DNA of 26,283 bases from a virus, in IMG/VR virus record IMGVR_UViG_3300022200_007276, positions 1 through 26,283 of that record; one strand, written 5' to 3'. The position numbers were made by a program, and so were the translations under genes. Positions 7,976 through 15,345 of this stretch are shown here, one piece after another (within the stretch, counting starts at the first letter, position 1; each line of letters opens with the position of its first letter). The notes beneath the pieces are model-generated. The model did no database searches and was not told where the DNA came from. It was given only the letters and a program-made list of their open reading frames with translations.

Positions 7976-8161
7976 CTAAGCGGCAGTCCTCCTGCCACGT
8001 TTAATTTCGTAAAAAGAAGGCCCGCTAGCCTCTATTACGAAGAAGATTTCTCTCTTTGCTTTGATCATTAAGGAAACCGCGCCCTGGGTTACACCCATGA
8101 CTTCAGCGGCTTCAGTTTGTGACCGCTCTTCGCAGAACTGCTTAAGTGTTATTTCTCTCAT
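7976..8161 (-). CDS. cro: Cro-like repressor
   Basis: A 61-residue protein closely patterned on lambda Cro: EITLKQFCEERSQTEAAEVM, then GVTQGAVSLMIKAKREIFFVI, then a strand with SFYEIK and a basic tail. The helix-turn-helix spans about residues 13-33 (QTEAAEVMGVTQGAVSLMIK). It is the first gene of the leftward operon, read from the promoter at 8169-8197. It should bind the 15-bp operators in the switch region and turn down early transcription. Confidence 0.9.
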   Translation of the reverse strand: MREITLKQFCEERSQTEAAEVMGVTQGAVSLMIKAKREIFFVIEASGPSFYEIKRGRRTAA

Positions 8162-8633: not shown

Positions 8634-9026
8634 ATGAGATTAAAAGAGCTACCACATACTGACCAAGAAGTAGCTTATCCAATCATCGAGAAGATACACA
8701 GCTATCACGGTTCTTATGATTTGTTGAACTTCGCCAAAATGGATGACAAGCAAACAGACAACTATATAGAAGTCTGGTTTGCCAACATGCCAGCCCACCT
8801 ACTCGAAGATGTTTACCACAACGCCATGCTTGATAACACGATGGCTAAAGACACCATTATGCAGCTTTACACGTCCCCTAAGGATAAGGCAGAGACAGAG
8901 AAAGAGTTGCTTAGAAACGCATTTAGACGGCCTCACAACAACCCACAAGACCAGCAGTCATGGGCGCAAAGAATTGAGGAATGCGTAAATCATTTGTTAG
9001 CAGATACATGGAGCGATGTCGGATGA
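8634..9026 (+). CDS. First gene of the rightward early operon (130 aa), unknown
   Basis: ATG 8634 follows GGAGATGGGG at a good distance, about 30 bases after the promoter -10 box. The 130-residue product is acidic to neutral and mostly helical (EKIHSYHGSYDLLNFAKM, then a segment MPAHLLEDVYHNAML), with no cysteine-rich or membrane part. The position would suit an antiterminator (lambda N) or a host-takeover protein, but it lacks the arginine-rich N-terminus of N. I do not recognise the family. It overlaps the next gene in an ATGA junction. Confidence 0.75.
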   Translation: MRLKELPHTDQEVAYPIIEKIHSYHGSYDLLNFAKMDDKQTDNYIEVWFANMPAHLLEDVYHNAMLDNTMAKDTIMQLYTSPKDKAETEKELLRNAFRRPHNNPQDQQSWAQRIEECVNHLLADTWSDVG

Positions 9027-9235
9027 AATACAAAAAAAGCATAGAGGCAATGTTTAAAGCGGGCCGCGTGAGAGCGACGGCAGTAACACCCGACCATGTA
9101 AGAAATGCGGAAAGATATATCAATCTGGCGGTAGCACGCTGCGAAGAAGAACGGCCACCCTATTACCTAGCGCAAGCCGCCTACAACGACGGTTTGAAAG
9201 GGTTAAGGCATCCTAGCCATAACGGTGTAGCGTGA
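9023..9235 (+). CDS. Small basic phage protein (70 aa)
   Basis: I start it at ATG 9023, which overlaps the upstream TGA (ATGA); ATG 9008 would add five residues. The product MKYKKSIEAMFKAGRVRATA continues with PDHVRNAERYINLAVARCEEERPP-type helices and ends in a GLKGL...NGVA tail. Basic and helical, it may bind nucleic acid. Function unknown. It ends in a TGATG junction with the next gene. Confidence 0.6.
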   Translation: MKYKKSIEAMFKAGRVRATAVTPDHVRNAERYINLAVARCEEERPPYYLAQAAYNDGLKGLRHPSHNGVA

Positions 9236-10695: not shown

Positions 10696-11142
10696 ATGGC
10701 ACGCGGAATTAACAAAGTCATTCTAGTAGGAAACCTCGGCAATGACCCAGAGAAAAAAGCTATGCCAAGCGGTAACGCTGTTACCAATATAACCATAGCA
10801 ACATCTGAGTCATGGAAGGATAAGCAGACCGGACAACAGCAGGAACGTACCGAATGGCACAGAGTAGTTTTCTTTAACCGTCTGGCAGAAATAGCGGGCG
10901 AGTATTTAAAGAAAGGCTCCAAGGTTTATATCGAAGGTTCGCTTAGAACAAGAAAGTGGCAAGACCAAAGCGGCGCTGATAGATACACCACTGAGGTTGT
11001 AGCCAGTGAGATGCAGATGTTGGATTCGCGTGGAGATGCTGGCTCTGGGGCGGGGAGTTCCCCGCCGAACGTGAATGGTGACGGCGACCACCAACCAGCA
11101 GAGTCGCCAGCTAATTTCGACGACTCTGAGATTCCGTTTTGA
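10696..11142 (+). CDS. ssb: Single-stranded DNA-binding protein
   Basis: A 148-residue SSB. The OB-fold opens with [17 protein letters not shown] and continues with [10 protein letters not shown] and [17 protein letters not shown], all diagnostic. The linker is glycine- and proline-rich (about 112-135) and the end is the acidic tip DDSEIPF, which binds partner proteins such as recombinases and primase. AAGGAG lies seven bases before the ATG. It protects single strands during phage replication and recombination. Confidence 0.95.
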
Positions 11143-11573: not shown

Positions 11574-11582
11574 GGCATGGAT

Positions 11583-11774
11583 ATGAAACCATTACTAATA
11601 CTAACCGCCCTACTCCTAACAGCCTGTAGTGATTTTGATGCAGATATACAAGAGCTAAAGGATAGGGGGAAGCAAGAGATAGTTAACGAGTGTCAGGACA
11701 ATGGCTATTTTAAGTATGGAATACTGACATTTGGCTGCCACCAGATGTTCGTGGTGGGGGAGTTAAATAAATGA
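11583..11774 (+). CDS. Small lipoprotein (63 aa)
   Basis: I choose ATG 11583 because GAGG lies seven bases upstream; an in-frame ATG two codons earlier is less well placed. A signal sequence MKPLLILTALLLTAC ends with the lipobox LTAC (Cys15). The mature part is short and charged with two further Cys (NECQDNGYFKYG, then TFGCHQM), which could form a disulfide. An outer-membrane or periplasmic lipoprotein expressed early fits superinfection exclusion proteins such as Llp or Cor, but there is no sequence proof. It overlaps the next gene by four bases (ATGA). Confidence 0.75.
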   Translation: MKPLLILTALLLTACSDFDADIQELKDRGKQEIVNECQDNGYFKYGILTFGCHQMFVVGELNK

Positions 11775-12007
11775 ACAGAAATTTACACGTAGCAACAAGC
11801 CCGCTCACCGGAACTATTTTTGTAGGAACAGTTTTGAAAGACGGTCGAACATGGGGAGCGAACAAACAGGATGTGACGATTGAAGCGCTGGTTGCTGTTG
11901 CGGAACATGCAGTTCATTTTGGTGAGAAGACGGGTAAGGCAATTGAGATACGAAGGCCCGATGGTACTCTGGAATACACGATAAAGGTTAGCCAGGAGAG
12001 CGCATAA
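11771..12007 (+). CDS. Small phage protein (78 aa), DUF7446-like, first before the attC-like array
   Basis: The product begins MNRNLHVATSPLTGTIFVGT and continues with LKDGRTWGANKQDVTIEALV, a pattern I associate with a widespread small phage family (DUF7446-type). It has beta strands, then a helix AVAEHAVHFGEK, then IEIRRPDGTLEYTIKV. Its TAA stop is embedded in the outer arm of the first attC-like site, as in integron cassettes where the ORF ends at the attC. It is therefore either the last ordinary early gene or the first cassette. Function unknown. Confidence 0.7.
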   Translation: MNRNLHVATSPLTGTIFVGTVLKDGRTWGANKQDVTIEALVAVAEHAVHFGEKTGKAIEIRRPDGTLEYTIKVSQESA

Positions 12008-12061
12008 CCCTGAGCACACGGGCGGAGCGTAGCGGAGTCCGCGTGCTGTGAATTGTTATGC
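12002..12061 (+). other. attC-like site 1 (60 bp)
   Basis: Outer arms GCATAAC (12002-12008) and GTTATGC (12055-12061) are perfect reverse complements. Inside, GAGCACACGGGCGGA pairs imperfectly with TCCGCGTGCTGTG around a short loop, leaving unpaired bases as in real attC sites. The size equals that of many integron attC sites. The right arm supplies an ATG (12058). Confidence 0.75.
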
Positions 12062-12072
12062 CGGAGACAGAC

Positions 12073-12276
12073 ATGATAGACAAATGCATACACCCAGATT
12101 GTGAGTGTCTGGATTATTGCGAAGCAGTAGACCCGCACTCGAAAACCCCGACAGTTGATTGGGTGGAAAGAAAATCGTTGGCCGAAGAAAATCTGCGCAC
12201 ATGCTCCCCTGATGACCGCAAACATTGGAGAGCGTGCCTGGCCGAAGCCAATGACCATATTGGAATTAGCAGGTAG
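12073..12276 (+). CDS. Cassette ORF, Cys-rich small protein (67 aa)
   Basis: GGAG lies about six bases before ATG 12073; an in-frame ATG at 12058 within the attC-like arm is the alternative. The N-terminus has four clustered Cys with His (MIDKCIHPDCECLDYCEAVD), a possible small zinc site, followed by a helical W/R-rich part with one more Cys. No known family. It sits alone behind attC-like site 1. The 84 bases after its stop (12277-12360) hold no gene and show only weak inverted repeats. Confidence 0.6.
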   Translation: MIDKCIHPDCECLDYCEAVDPHSKTPTVDWVERKSLAEENLRTCSPDDRKHWRACLAEANDHIGISR

Positions 12277-12360
12277 TGTTGGCCGATGACCCCAGCACCG
12301 CACAGCGGGCGCGTTGCCTACAGCCACGGCAGAGCGGATTCTGCGCCGGAGACGTAACCG

Positions 12361-12438
12361 GCATAACCCTGAGCTAACCGGAGAACGGAAATGAGTGAAA
12401 CGAATTGTAGTGAGTCCGTGTTGAGCGACTTGTTAGCT
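12361..12438 (+). other. attC-like site 2 (78 bp), overlaps an ORF start
   Basis: Outer arms GCATAAC (12361-12367) and GTTAGCT (12432-12438). Inner arms GAGCTAACCGGA and TCCGTGTTGAGC pair with small bulges. Its first 14 bases are identical to site 1, and GTAGTGAGTCC near its right arm recurs in site 8. The ORF 12391-12720 reads through its right half. Confidence 0.65.
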
Positions 12439-12720
12439 GTGATTGAGCCACAGCCGCCAAAGGGTATTAGATATATATTGGGCGGAGAAACCTGGCTGCC
12501 GAAAGAGAAGCAAAGCCCGGTTAGACTGCATTGTGAGGAGTGGGGAAACCTTGGGCCCATGGAGCTTGACCCAGAAATAAAGCAAAACAAGGCCGGGTTT
12601 AGAGTGAGATCATCAGACTTTTTGGCCCCAGAAGGTGCTCATGGCTACACGCAAGTTGATGGCATTTATTATTGGACAAAATCTAGCTGCTATGAGCTGT
12701 ACAAAGCAGAAAACAGCTAA
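12391..12720 (+). CDS. Cassette ORF of unknown function (109 aa)
   Basis: ATG 12391 with GGAG ten bases upstream lies inside attC-like site 2, so the first 16 residues (MSETNCSESVLSDLLA) are encoded by the site. A GTG at 12439 right after the site is an alternative start. The rest (PKGIRYILGGETWLPKEKQS..., then FRVRSSDFLAPEGAHGYTQV and IYYWTKSSCYELY) looks like a globular beta-rich domain rich in aromatic residues. I do not recognise a family. Between its stop and the next ORF is a hairpin TTACC/GGTAA (about 12740-12758) in place of a clear attC. Confidence 0.65.
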   Translation: MSETNCSESVLSDLLAVIEPQPPKGIRYILGGETWLPKEKQSPVRLHCEEWGNLGPMELDPEIKQNKAGFRVRSSDFLAPEGAHGYTQVDGIYYWTKSSCYELYKAENS

Positions 12721-12773
12721 CACTGCGATTCAGAGGTAATTTACCTTTCTAACGGTAATGAGGAATTGAAACC

Positions 12774-13013
12774 ATGACAAACGTGAACGAACAAACTGAA
12801 CCAGCAGAAGGCGAAAAAGTTAGTGTGCCTGATCTGTTTCGTGTGCGGTGGTGGGTACAGGACACAATGGAGAGCGGGCACTGGGAGGTGTCTGGTTTGG
12901 TTGGACTAAAAACGGCGCAGCAATATTGTCGATGCGGGCACTATGAACAAGCTGGGATTGTGCTTGATGAGGAGGGCTGGCCACCCTATGAAGGGGATTG
13001 GTGGGCACACTAA
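12774..13013 (+). CDS. Cassette ORF, Trp-rich small protein (79 aa)
   Basis: GAGGAA precedes ATG 12774. The product is acidic at the start (NEQTEPAEGEKVSVP) and then very rich in Trp and Cys (FRVRWWVQDTMESGHWE, CRCGHYEQAG, WPPYEGDWWAH). It resembles small orphan proteins of phages and cassettes but matches no family I know. It is the only ORF between the unclear separator at 12721-12773 and attC-like site 4, and its stop lies in the outer arm of that site. Confidence 0.65.
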   Translation: MTNVNEQTEPAEGEKVSVPDLFRVRWWVQDTMESGHWEVSGLVGLKTAQQYCRCGHYEQAGIVLDEEGWPPYEGDWWAH

Positions 13014-13067
13014 CCGCTACCTAATTTGCGTAGCGAAGCGGAGTCAAAATTGAGGAAACTGTTATGA
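13008..13067 (+). other. attC-like site 4 (60 bp)
   Basis: Outer arms CACTAAC (13008-13014) and GTTATGA (13061-13067). The inner arms CTACCTAATTTG and CAAAATTGAGGAAAC pair well with bulges around GCGTAGCGAAGCGGAGT, a central motif shared with other sites. GAGGAA in the right inner arm is at ribosome-site distance from the ATG in the right outer arm. Confidence 0.75.
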
Positions 13068-13264
13068 CGGATGCAGAACTGATAGCGCGGCAGGCAAAAG
13101 AAATTGCCGAATTGAAACTGCTGACAATTGAGTTGCAGGGCAGGATAGACAGGGCGCTCGGGCAAATTTATTGTATTGGTGGCCCACTTAATGACAACGC
13201 AAGGCGGTACAACAAGGAGCAGCTTGCGGAATGGTTTCGGGTTAAAGAACGGCTTGAGTCATAA
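13064..13264 (+). CDS. Cassette ORF, coiled-coil phage protein (66 aa)
   Basis: The start ATG is the ATG of the GTTATGA arm of attC-like site 4, with GAGGAA seven bases upstream, also inside the site. The first half is a heptad-like helix (LIARQAKEIAELKLLTIELQ) common in small phage proteins; the second half is basic (DNARRYNKEQLAEWFRV). The stop TAA falls in the next attC-like site. Function unknown; oligomerisation is likely. Confidence 0.7.
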   Translation: MTDAELIARQAKEIAELKLLTIELQGRIDRALGQIYCIGGPLNDNARRYNKEQLAEWFRVKERLES

Positions 13265-13331
13265 CGACCAGCATAACCGGAACGAATGGAGCGCAGCGGA
13301 ATGAGTGTCCGCGTTAATGCGCTTGTTATAT
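13259..13331 (+). other. attC-like site 5 (73 bp)
   Basis: Outer arms TCATAAC (13259-13265) and GTTATAT (13325-13331). Inner arms CAGCATAACCGGA and TCCGCGTTAATGCGC pair over most of their length, and GAATGGAGCGCAGCGGAATGAG forms the tip. This is one of the clearest sites. Confidence 0.75.
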
Positions 13332-13345
13332 TTTTGAGGTGATTT

Positions 13346-13540
13346 ATGGCAAAACTGAAAAGGATCTGGATTGAACGAGACTTGGCCGATATTGGTTGTA
13401 AAGAGGCTATCCACATTGCTTGGGATAATGATCGACACCAAAGAATCGAATTAGAAGGGGATACACCGAAGGACATGATTAAAGCGCTGGACTTTGCTGT
13501 AAGGCTGCTTAAATCAGAATTTAAAGGCAATGAAATATAA
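13346..13540 (+). CDS. Cassette ORF of unknown function (64 aa)
   Basis: GAGGTG sits five bases before ATG 13346, just past attC-like site 5. The product starts basic (MAKLKRIWIERDLADIGC), has a strand KEAIHIAWDNDRHQRIEL and a helix DMIKALDFAVRLLKS. It looks like a compact beta-beta-alpha fold. No family recognised. The TAA lies in the degenerate site 6. Confidence 0.65.
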   Translation: MAKLKRIWIERDLADIGCKEAIHIAWDNDRHQRIELEGDTPKDMIKALDFAVRLLKSEFKGNEI

Positions 13541-13588
13541 CACGTTATTAACCGAACTTAGCGGAGTTTTATAAATAATGAATTATAT
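13535..13588 (+). other. Degenerate attC-like site 6 (54 bp)
   Basis: Left arm ATATAAC (13535-13541) pairs with ATTATAT (13582-13588), where the G expected in GTT is A. The inner arms CGTTATTAACCGAACT and AGTTTTATAAATAATG pair well around TAGCGG. The fold is kept but the conserved cleavage triplet is lost, so this site may be inactive. Confidence 0.6.
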
Positions 13589-13619
13589 ATGCAAAACCAA
13601 TTTAAATAGGAAAACCACT

Positions 13620-13835
13620 ATGAACTACGGCGGAACACTCGAAGAAAACAAAGAATGCGCGCTTGAAGACATTGCACTGCAAGTTGACCGAATTGACAAC
13701 TTACTGGCAAGTATGTCTATGCCGATTGATAACTCAATTCATGTTGAAGCTCTAAAAGAGGCATTACCGGAGATGAAAGGTCCGCTAATACAGGCTTACT
13801 TTGAGCTGGGCGGTGTGGATGTGTGGGGCATATAA
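13620..13835 (+). CDS. Cassette ORF (71 aa), partly duplicated downstream
   Basis: I use ATG 13620 (AGGAAAA eight bases upstream) rather than ATG 13578, which lies in the degenerate attC-like site. The product is acidic and helical: GTLEENKECALEDIALQVDR, then a turn SMSMPIDNSIHVEAL and a helix LPEMKGPLIQAYFEL. Seventy bases of it (13684-13753) recur exactly at 15020-15089. No known family. A small regulator or a binding partner is conceivable. Its TAA falls in site 7. Confidence 0.7.
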   Translation: MNYGGTLEENKECALEDIALQVDRIDNLLASMSMPIDNSIHVEALKEALPEMKGPLIQAYFELGGVDVWGI

Positions 13836-13916
13836 CGAATTAGCTCAGTGGAGCCGCCACTGAGTGACTATTGAAAACCGGACGTTCTCGGCTTCCACTG
13901 AAGCGACTGGTTATAC
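13830..13916 (+). other. attC-like site 7 (87 bp)
   Basis: Outer arms ATATAAC (13830-13836) and GTTATAC (13910-13916). The inner arms AGCTCAGTGGAGCCG and CGGCTTCCACTGAAGCG pair over 14 bases with bulges. The long central part (about 32 bases) makes a large variable tip as in long attC sites. Confidence 0.75.
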
Positions 13917-13931
13917 ATTTTGAGGTGAGTT

Positions 13932-14225
13932 ATGGAAACAAAAGAAATATTGAAACTGAAGATTGAAAGTAGCGATTTTGACAAAGACCTTACAATAGCA
14001 GGATATTTCAAACTACTACTAACAGAACTCTGGAAAGAAGGGGAATGTTTCAGCGGAAAGCGACCATTTGGCAATAGCGGGTGGGAGTACGACGTTTACA
14101 GGCCGCTGATAAAAGCAGGGGTTATTAGCGGTGAGCTAGATGAATATGACTGCGTAGAAGATTGCGACAGGAAAGAGGCAGACGGCAAAGTCTTGGAATT
14201 GATTGAAGCCGCCTTGGCTGTATAA
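13932..14225 (+). CDS. Cassette ORF, conserved-looking phage protein (97 aa)
   Basis: GAGGTGAG precedes ATG 13932. The C-terminal half contains ECFSGKRPFGNSGWEYDVY followed by RPLIKAGVISGEL, a motif I know from small early proteins in unrelated siphophages and myophages. The N-terminal part is helical (TIAGYFKLLLTELWKEG). So this cassette carries a phage-type gene rather than a typical integron gene. Function unknown. Its TAA is in site 8. Confidence 0.75.
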   Translation: METKEILKLKIESSDFDKDLTIAGYFKLLLTELWKEGECFSGKRPFGNSGWEYDVYRPLIKAGVISGELDEYDCVEDCDRKEADGKVLELIEAALAV

Positions 14226-14288
14226 CCCTAAGCTCACTGCGCGAACGAAGCGCCAGCGTAGTGAGTCCAGTGCAGCGTGTTGTTATGG
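14220..14288 (+). other. attC-like site 8 (69 bp)
   Basis: Outer arms GTATAAC (14220-14226) and GTTATGG (14282-14288). The first bases (TATAACCCTAAGC) resemble sites 1 and 2, and GTAGTGAGTCC recurs from site 2. Inner pairing is AAGCTCACTG with CAGTGCAGCGT, with a GCGCGAACGAAGCG segment forming a side stem. Confidence 0.65.
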
Positions 14289-14297
14289 CTTTTTACT

Positions 14298-14609
14298 ATG
14301 AGACGACTAATTTATTTTGATGAAAGGGAGATGCTGCTTTGTGAATGGGCGCGCGAATATAGAATGAAGCGGCAAACGTTAGCGCGGAGATTAAACTCTG
14401 GCTGGAATATTGAAACCGCATTGACACATCCCGTCCGCGACCCAATAAACATGGATGCAGAAACCGCCAGAATCATTGGCGAGGAATACTACAATTCAGT
14501 GCCTTGTAGAAAATGCGGATGCAAAATCAGGAACACTAAAAAAGGCTATTGCCCAGTTTGCAAAAGAAGCAAAGCAAAAGAGGATTACCGTAATGCAAAA
14601 ACTGCTTGA
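14298..14609 (+). CDS. Cassette ORF, zinc-ribbon protein related to phage HNH accessory domains (103 aa)
   Basis: ATG 14298 is preferred over an upstream GTG inside the attC-like site; no clear ribosome site is visible. Residues about 20-45 read WAREYRMKRQTLARRLNSGW then NIETALTHPVR, the DNA-binding unit often attached to phage HNH and AP2 proteins. The C-terminus has a four-Cys zinc ribbon (CRKCGCKI, then GYCPVCKRS). No HNH catalytic block is present, so it is probably a DNA-binding protein rather than a nuclease. Its last 17 bases overlap the next ORF. Confidence 0.65.
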   Translation: MRRLIYFDEREMLLCEWAREYRMKRQTLARRLNSGWNIETALTHPVRDPINMDAETARIIGEEYYNSVPCRKCGCKIRNTKKGYCPVCKRSKAKEDYRNAKTA

Positions 14610-14742
14610 TTATTTTTCACCACACCGACGAATTGCAAGGAAACTGCGATGGCTGCAACACTATGCAGGAAAGCATTATTACACTATTGCAACTGGCAAA
14701 TTTGGAAAGATGGCGCAGGACTTTGAAAGGTTTGAGCCATAA
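14593..14742 (+). CDS. Small basic ORF overlapping the zinc-ribbon gene (49 aa)
   Basis: ATG 14593 lies within the last codons of the zinc-ribbon ORF in another frame. The product MQKLLDYFSPHRRIARKLRW continues with LQHYAGKHYYTIATGKFGKM and is strongly basic and aromatic. It ends with TAA in the outer arm of site 9, which argues for a real second ORF in the same cassette. Similar short KLRWLQHYAGKHYYTIATGKF-type peptides occur in phages. Function unknown. Confidence 0.6.
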   Translation: MQKLLDYFSPHRRIARKLRWLQHYAGKHYYTIATGKFGKMAQDFERFEP

Positions 14743-14784
14743 CCCTGCGAACACGGGTTTATCCCGTGCTTTGCGTTGTTAGTG
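14737..14784 (+). other. attC-like site 9 (48 bp)
   Basis: Outer arms CCATAAC (14737-14743) and GTTAGTG (14778-14784). Inner arms GCGAACACGGG and CCCGTGCTTTGCG pair almost fully around TTTAT. It is the shortest and cleanest hairpin in the array. In the plus RNA it has no T-run, so it is not a terminator. Confidence 0.75.
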
Positions 14785-14810
14785 TGTAACCAACTACGAA
14801 GGAGAGAGAA

Positions 14811-15023
14811 ATGCTTGAAGATTTGATTAAGTGGCTAGAGCAACAAAACCCTGAGTTAACCGTGCCTCACGGGTTCGGGGAACCTGACAGCTATCGTGGA
14901 TATTATGATGAAATTGCATTCGCGCCAAAAGAAAACGTGACCTTTGGAGAAATGCTAGAACATGCGAAGAGTGCCCTAGGTGCAACCTTCACCGGCTACA
15001 AAGGTGGCGAACACACCATTTGA
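14811..15023 (+). CDS. Phage protein with truncated C-terminus (70 aa)
   Basis: GGAGAG lies five bases before ATG 14811. Residues 21-65 (FGEPDSYRGYYDEIAFAPKE, then a helix LEHAKSALGATFTGYKGGEH) form a motif found in many phages, usually followed by a further 20-40 residues. Here the frame ends right after GGEHTI, exactly where the 70-base copy of the upstream cassette begins. I infer that recombination replaced its 3' end. Whether the short form works is unknown. Confidence 0.65.
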   Translation: MLEDLIKWLEQQNPELTVPHGFGEPDSYRGYYDEIAFAPKENVTFGEMLEHAKSALGATFTGYKGGEHTI

Positions 15024-15156
15024 CCGAATTGACAACTTACTGGCAAGTATGTCTATGCCGATTGATAACTCAATTCATGTTGAAGCTCTGAAAGGGTCTT
15101 TGCCAGAAATGAAAAGTAAGCGGAATAAGCATTGCGGTTCTACCCACTACCTTTAA
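15020..15156 (+). pseudogene. Partial second copy of cassette gene 13620-13835
   Basis: The first 70 bases equal 13684-13753 exactly. The next 27 are a diverged homologue (LKGSLPEMK versus LKEALPEMK), and then the sequence becomes unrelated (SKRNKHCGSTHYL) and stops. The 5' end of the gene, with its start and ribosome site, is missing. An internal ATG (MSMPIDNS...) could still give a 35-residue peptide. It joins directly onto the truncated gene at 14811-15023. Confidence 0.75.
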
Positions 15157-15175
15157 CCCTTAACCCAGAGATAAC
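15152..15175 (+). repeat. 24-bp direct repeat, copy 1, attC half-site-like
   Basis: Identical to 15341-15364. The part CTTAACCCAGAGATAACCGG (15159-15178) matches the left arm of attC-like site 2 (12361-12380) at 17 of 20 bases, but no GTTA right arm follows. Confidence 0.8.
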
Positions 15176-15180
15176 CGGTC

Positions 15181-15345
15181 ATGGATTTATATTATAGGTT
15201 CTGGTGCCACTACGACGCTAAGCAGGGATGGGCCAAGGTGTACTGGTGTAGCAATAAAGTTTGGTACCAAGAAGATGGTGGTTGCCTGTCTCTATCAAGG
15301 CTGGTGCCACGCGATATACGCCTAGCAACCATGCTTGAGTTTTAA
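15181..15345 (+). CDS. Small aromatic ORF between direct repeats (54 aa)
   Basis: ATG 15181 follows AGAGATAACCGGTC; the ribosome site is weak. The product MDLYYRFWCHYDAKQGWAKV continues with YWCSNKVWYQEDGG and LSRLVPRDIRLATML. Rich in W, Y and C, it resembles short phage proteins with strand-forming YWC patterns. It is flanked by the two 24-bp repeats, so it looks like one more cassette unit, the last before the convergent tail operon. Its TAA is inside the second repeat. Confidence 0.55.
   Translation: MDLYYRFWCHYDAKQGWAKVYWCSNKVWYQEDGGCLSLSRLVPRDIRLATMLEF

Follow-up and report, generated by a model that had tools for sequence, protein, structure and literature searches.

An array of attC sites in a virus contig

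The window analysed here, 26,283 bases of viral DNA (IMG/VR record IMGVR_UViG_3300022200_007276, positions 1 to 26,283), contains between positions 12002 and 14784 seven sites of the attC family, the recombination sites of integron gene cassettes, which are interspersed with small open reading frames (ORFs) and all face the opposite way to them. The same record carries tail and DnaB-like helicase genes, an exonuclease-like gene (9525), a Gam-like gene (10192) and, on the plus strand at 10696..11142, a single-strand-binding protein gene (ssb), named from its homologues and not from a direct family search. The array lies 0.9 kb downstream of ssb, a gene near which arrays are found in other phages too. 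Among the loci retrieved for comparison, designated by L numbers, L001 and L002 match the window almost perfectly over the stretch fetched and show no change in the array up to where they end. Against 50,697 phage records the first 25 kb of the window gave no DNA match, a search for isolated phages carrying the same arrays gave matches to single genes only, and an Rfam scan returned no family at the gathering threshold.

The sites, all on the minus strand, are 48–87 bp long, with a left arm ending in TAAC and a right arm beginning with GTTA; the scores given in brackets are those of the two covariance models described below (R1, then R2, in bits). A plus-strand ORF at 11771..12007 (DUF7446, phrog_1578) has its TAA stop inside attC 1 (12002..12061; 34.1 on the minus strand versus 11.2 on the plus strand, 46.5), whose arms read R''=GCATAAC and R'=GTTATGC and whose GTTATG overlaps the ATG of a family-less cassette ORF at 12058..12276 (this and all following cassette ORFs are on the plus strand). 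attC 2 (12361..12438; 37.1, 51.4) contains the called start (MSETNCSESVLSDLLA...) of the cassette ORF at 12391..12720; on the plus strand it presents GGAG and an ATG (12391) in a frame open into that ORF. After another cassette ORF without a family (12774..13013) comes attC 3 (13008..13067; 14.0, the weakest by R1, 24.5), the GTTATG of which again overlaps the ATG of the next ORF (13064..13264, no convincing family). attC 4 (13259..13331), the strongest by R1 (47.3, E 1.5e-8; 51.2), precedes a family-less ORF at 13346..13540 and, further on, the cassette ORF at 13578..13835. The longest site, attC 5 (13830..13916, 87 bp; 27.2, 35.2), is followed by an ORF at 13932..14225 that had already been annotated as a phage-type gene and does match phrog_15618, a phage family of unknown function (E 1e-18). 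Between attC 6 (14220..14288; 16.0, 32.8) and attC 7, the shortest site (14737..14784, 48 bp; 15.0, 22.5), lies a cassette ORF at 14298..14609 with a weak HNH-endonuclease family match (phrog_3377, E 3e-7), overlapping the second ORF of the same cassette (14455-14742). An ORF of phrog_12889 (14811..15023, plus strand) stands past site 7. Most sites are thus separated by one small ORF of constant orientation, as first described, and the stop reported in the left arm is the TAA of TAAC.

The seven sites belong to the attC family

R1 was built from 26 attCs adjoining integron integrase (IntI) genes, none of them from the phage loci found in this work: 25 came from bacterial genomes located with an IntI profile, and a class 1 integron on a plasmid supplied the other (L090). 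They were curated by structure and consensus and aligned as A3, an earlier alignment (A2) having been dropped because MAFFT had put the right spacer of some sites one column out of register. Run over all 26 kb of the window with filters off, R1 placed exactly these seven sites first, at the coordinates of the initial annotation, which had proposed such a covariance search; the next best match reached 11.5 bits. E-values of home-built covariance models such as these are rough. R2, built from 132 viral matches that include four of the seven window sites (attC 3, 6 and 7 lie outside its training set), gave the seven 51.4 to 22.5 bits and the next best match 12.9; with 32.8 bits for site 6, the earlier description of that site as degenerate is rejected. 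R2 also scored the class 1 aadA2 attC (L087), unseen in training, at 54 bits.

An independent pairing finder returned seven candidates in 11901-14900, whereas 200 dinucleotide shuffles gave 0.6 on average and never more than 4. Standard pairs fill 85% of the paired cells in the 132 viral sites, and two-sided compensatory cells number 254 versus 92 ± 14 in shuffles and 21–67 when the pairing partner is slid by 1–3 columns, although the excess over the slid versions is partly built in because the alignment was fitted to the model. When each strand was folded alone, the plus strand had the lower energy in five of the seven sites, a weak preference with modest z-scores that was not used as evidence.

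The window sites are therefore genuine attCs as regards both sequence and structure, with the arm consensus and bulged pairing (R''/L'', L'/R') of that family. With seven sites and no match to the integron integrase model TIGR02249 in the record, the window falls under the definition of a CALIN (cluster of attC sites lacking integron integrases: at least two attC, no intI), as initially annotated, and, because the tail, DnaB-like helicase and Gam-like genes share its contig, under that of a phage CALIN. It is not a complete integron, there being no IntI in its record or over the cut-off in the others; attI was not searched for separately. The sites had also been read as a homogeneous family like that of one chromosomal integron, a reading that fails because the seven differ in length and sequence. 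Near-identical copies occur in other phages instead: attC 2 is 88% identical to L188:1020-1097, between unrelated flanks.

Sites and genes run in opposite directions

Every cassette ORF of the window is on the plus strand and all seven attCs are on the minus strand, that is, antiparallel to the genes. The order in bacterial arrays is ORF-TAACAA...GCGTTA-ORF, whereas the window has the reverse complement, ORF-TAACCC...TTGTTA-ORF. This call does not depend on a single motif: site 1, when reverse-complemented (GCATAACAATTCACAGCACGCGGAC...), aligns with an Advenella site linked to IntI (L097, GCATAACAATTTGCTGCACGCGGA...), and the CGCTACGCTCC at its centre likewise has the bacterial top-strand form. 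The initial annotation had overlooked this polarity. Its array of attC sites stands, but the bacterial layout, read from a promoter, does not, since the sites run against the ORFs; nor did a consensus scan single out the PL-like promoter proposed to transcribe it (10 sites versus 11.9 expected).

Orientation was scored in all sets with the same simple home-made gene caller, which uses a codon model and was checked on the genes that it called in the window; it replaced a noisy first count with longest-ORF picks (viral, 58 antiparallel to 24 parallel). In 80 virus loci fetched solely for a window-like ssb, about 20 of which had attC matches, all 42 of 42 gene–site adjacencies were antiparallel. 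A second virus set, fetched by the strand-neutral pattern TAACAANNNNNTCAANNCGGAC, which favours one attC subtype, gave 129 antiparallel of 140. With a more sensitive model the combined viral sets reached 300 of 315, or 73 contigs versus 4 with 3 undecided, counts in which the contigs are not phylogenetically independent. The bacterial sets show the reverse: 82 parallel and 12 antiparallel adjacencies in IntI-linked arrays, 7 and 0 in class 1 plasmid cassettes, and, in gammaproteobacterial genomes fetched by the same pattern (30 loci) and scored with the viral-trained model, 50 and 5 (17 loci versus 0). By contig, the viral and gammaproteobacterial polarities differ with Fisher p ~3e-15. Integrons captured by a Vibrio and a Shewanella phage are likewise parallel (19 to 1). 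A polarity opposite to that of bacterial arrays is therefore the rule in viral contigs, and the window, antiparallel at all seven sites, is not an array of the bacterial type, in which attCs are oriented as the cassette ORFs.

Two phages have sites and genes on both strands (L037 and L049), each site being antiparallel to its own genes. In either phage the arrays (L037:2506-4872 and 9665; L049:3873-4512 and 9652) are spread over two gene clusters of opposite orientation. The parallel virus contigs are L248, L252, L215 and L176, perhaps captured bacterial integrons or caller errors.

Gene blocks switch at the site boundaries

Compared with one another, related phages carry different ORF blocks, and the changeover falls exactly at the R boxes (TAAC, GTTA). 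The close relatives L018 and L021 are 93% identical over ssb and 96% over the 1.9-kb stretch upstream. In L018 the ssb stop reads TTTTTAA|CCCGGAGGTAACGAGCGATG, whereas L021 holds about 0.9 kb extra at this point, containing several ORFs, one of them CsrA-like, and an attC (8063-8131); the 150 bases that the two share, 100% identical, begin exactly at TAA|C. In L225, L377 and L378, a DNA methyltransferase gene forms an attC-bounded block, and the homology between L225 and L377 runs from the GTTA boundary (upstream TTGTTATG) through a non-coding leader to TAAC, both attC bodies being different. A related methyltransferase gene in L373 has no attC. Since these genes (L225:4494, L377:3968 and L378:157 versus L373:4001) occur both with and without attC bounds, genes may enter and leave the cassette form in phages. 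When every array is taken into account, TAAC forms the end of a homologous block at 9 sites and GTTA the beginning of one at 5. The boundary differences anticipated by the initial annotation are thus present: static repeats would show none among relatives, and L018/L021 and L225/L377 do differ. The outcome that was to count against that annotation, namely no covariance matches, no boundary differences and static repeats only, did not occur.

At 17 sites the attC alone is shared, up to 97% identical between unrelated flanks (for example, L049:9652 and L037:9665, or L233:7272 and L210:12102). Among homologous ORFs, identity of the downstream attC was 0.50-0.68 versus a null median of 0.57, in a small sample of fast-diverging attCs from which one pair resembling a single phage had been excluded. 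The pair L025/L026 was not used as a case of gain or loss, the extra region of L026 holding no attC.

Two side observations concern the genes of these phages. CsrA-like genes lie beside or inside phage attC arrays at L021:7740-7919 and L013:~8850-9042. In L384 and L373 a related methyltransferase stretch occurs twice per contig, suggesting tandem paralogues.

Translation signals and cargo

The TAA of the R box, read in gene direction, is the upstream stop codon at 101 of 145 viral sites and 16 of 41 bacterial ones. In addition, a Shine-Dalgarno (SD)-like motif, an ATG and a frame open for at least 25 codons past the site were found at 35 of 209 viral sites (~17%), compared with 3 of 209 in the reverse direction, 0 of 60 bacterial sites and 7-16 in a grafted control. 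Examples include MSETNCSESVLSDLLA... in the window, MSEANCSESELSALLC... in L188 and MSEAKSAESELSALLC... in L025. Judging from these motifs, some viral sites probably act as start modules, but most do not. In one case, site 7, a terminator-like stem coincides with the attC.

Stretches resembling the left half of an attC, with TAAC and an SD-like motif directly before an ATG, were noticed at L018:8430 and at two places in the window, and supply a stop codon and a ribosome-binding site. The first window copy, a truncated half-site seen by inspection (13537..13586, plus strand; TAACACGTTATTAACCG...GGAG), precedes the ORF at 13578 and is 90% identical to L013:10901-10950, where another ORF comes next. 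The second is a half-site-like stretch of repeat family D2 (15152..15184, plus strand; TAACCCTTAACCCAGAGATAACCGGTCATG), recognized by inspection only, before an ORF at 15181. Near it, 98 bp of the cassette ORF 13578 (13684-13781) recur downstream of the array at 15020-15117 with 92% identity, in a short open frame at 14980 that is probably a broken copy. On the other side of the array, small lipoprotein-like ORFs that appear homologous by eye lie shortly before the arrays of the window (11577-11774) and L013 (9057-9275), two otherwise different phages.

Most cassette ORFs of the window have no family, the exceptions being DUF7446, phrog_15618, phrog_12889 and the weak HNH match. In 143 cassette-type ORFs of other arrays, Pfam recognized four N6/N4 DNA methylases, one C5 methylase, one Tad3 (a Thoeris inhibitor), one NinX and one dUTPase (L181:4350), and a Mom-like protein at L233:6811 scored below the Pfam cut-off. 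On these family assignments the cargo seems to lean towards counter-defence, the majority of ORFs having no known function.

A proposed mechanism and its alternatives

Searches with TIGR02249 gave no integrase at the curated cut-off, either in the window record or in 50 further virus records with arrays, many of them fragments, and the weaker matches resemble ordinary phage tyrosine recombinases. With no IntI over the cut-off in these 51 records, we infer that a host IntI acts in trans; it is the favoured, though unproven, mobilizer. IntI1 has been found to recombine five of six tested phage attCs with attI1 (Qi et al. 2023, PMC9892861), and only the bottom strand of an attC is recombined, more so when it is on the lagging-strand template (PMC11023631, PMC8946536). 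Under this model, the integron integrase of the infected host would fold and cut the sites, and the R-box junctions of L018/L021 and L225/L377 are in keeping with such recombination. Because these are inverted, the cut G^TTA would fall at TAA^C beside the stop of the upstream gene, and the recombining bottom strand would be the sense strand of the genes. A cassette would then consist of an attC followed by an ORF, with the attC as 5' leader and the ORF's own stop at the next cut. If the genes are co-directional with the replication fork, their sense strand would serve as the lagging-strand template, and attC recombination is reported to be raised in that configuration. In place of the integron promoter, the phage would rely on its own transcription.

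Several points weigh against this model. Three of the seven sites reach only 14-16 bits with the independent R1. Recombination of the sites was not observed, neither a host nor a host integron with these sites was identified, and a DNA search of 50,697 phage and 72,556 plasmid records gave no match to the window array. Above all, a single IntI cut per site predicts travelling units made of an ORF and its attC, which were looked for over all arrays and not seen; blocks of ORF only or attC only are shared. This missing unit, unlike the textbook cassette, is the main unexplained point, and it would fit additional events, recombination of both strands or a different route of exchange.

In one rival reading, the sites descend from integrons but might now be linkers for homologous or annealing recombination by the phage's own exonuclease-like, Gam-like and SSB proteins, which would produce gene mosaics with conserved boundaries without any IntI. 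The array does lie beside the genes for these (9525, 10192 and 10696), both R boxes serve as junctions, most shared blocks consist of an ORF only or an attC only, and no IntI exceeded the cut-off in the 51 records. We nevertheless regard such a conversion as unlikely: sequences within one array are too different to make good homology arms (48–87 bp, with diverse centres), the TAAC switches of L018/L021 and L225/L377 took place without shared attC bodies, and neither one polarity (300 to 15) nor integron-specific bulged pairing with strong covariation would be needed. Still less probable is a bacterial integron array acquired by a phage and now static, an ordinary CALIN. Phage CALINs have been published (Qi et al. 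2023), and the near-identical L001 and L002 retain the window array intact, but captured integrons stay parallel (19 to 1 in the Vibrio and Shewanella phages; by inspection in phage TJE1), the content matches phage families (phrog_15618, 12889 and 1578), and related phages have gained or lost sequence at the site boundaries, which already disfavour a remnant. Finally, the repeats could be terminators, translation-coupling hairpins or start-codon leaders with a mere resemblance to attCs, as the leader frames at 35 of 209 sites (7-16 in the grafted control), the R-box stops (101 of 145 viral sites, 16 of 41 bacterial) and the stem at site 7 might suggest. That they are nothing else is very improbable, given that a model of bacterial attCs ranks them first, that a model of viral sites finds class 1 cassette sites and that the majority lack a leader frame; a role in expression may coexist with recombination.

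We therefore consider it fairly probable, from sequence and structure comparisons, that the window holds an integrase-less array of genuine viral-type attCs, all inverted relative to their genes, on which a host IntI acts in trans. More tentatively, and with rather less confidence than we place in that reading, viruses may keep a cassette pool of their own, separated from the bacterial one by polarity, with cassettes that are self-contained translation units, exchange quickly and carry counter-defence cargo. If so, the recombining strand would be the sense strand, favouring fast exchange in phage DNA, and if a host integron captured a viral cassette, the cassette would lie antisense to the integron promoter and remain silent.

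Comparison with known integron systems

In integron theory, the integrase cuts one strand, with the result that cassette genes are oriented away from the promoter. A class of viral arrays with the opposite polarity would be a second arrangement, kept by selection across many phages, and annotation pipelines that assume parallel cassettes may misread its arrays. It makes testable both the birth of gene cassettes, attC and ORF blocks moving separately here, and the use of host integrases by phages to swap accessory and counter-defence genes. Clusters of attC sites in phages are already known (Qi et al. 2023); the new part is the systematic inversion, of which a full-text literature search, with subscription papers and preprints outside its coverage, found no report as a viral class.

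The closest published relatives are the 17 phage CALINs of Qi et al. 2023 (PMC9892861), attC clusters without intI and with small ORFs between the sites, as here. In that study the cassettes of TJE1 and PH101 are typical in direction and the attC directions of P12002L divergent. TJE1 was the one published array recovered by our model, which places its sites, as does inspection, on the strand of its genes, in contrast with the systematically antiparallel arrays of the many contigs described here; PH101 gave no model match in the three quarters of its genome searched. Sedentary chromosomal integrons share with the viral arrays the sequence and structure of their attCs, small and mostly uncharacterized ORFs, and a stop codon often at the R box, but they are parallel (82 to 12 and 50 to 5) and possess IntI and attI, whereas the viral arrays are antiparallel and lack IntI. 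The captured integrons of temperate phages (Va_90-11-286_p16, M16-3) are also attC arrays in phage records; unlike the arrays described here, they carry intI and are parallel. Exchange of genes at conserved short boundaries is common to the viral arrays and the mosaic linkers in the operons of lambdoid phages, although the latter are not known to be attC-family hairpins with a fixed polarity. The inverted polarity, seen in the window and in 73 of 77 virus contigs, suggests that viruses keep a store of swappable gene cassettes of their own design.

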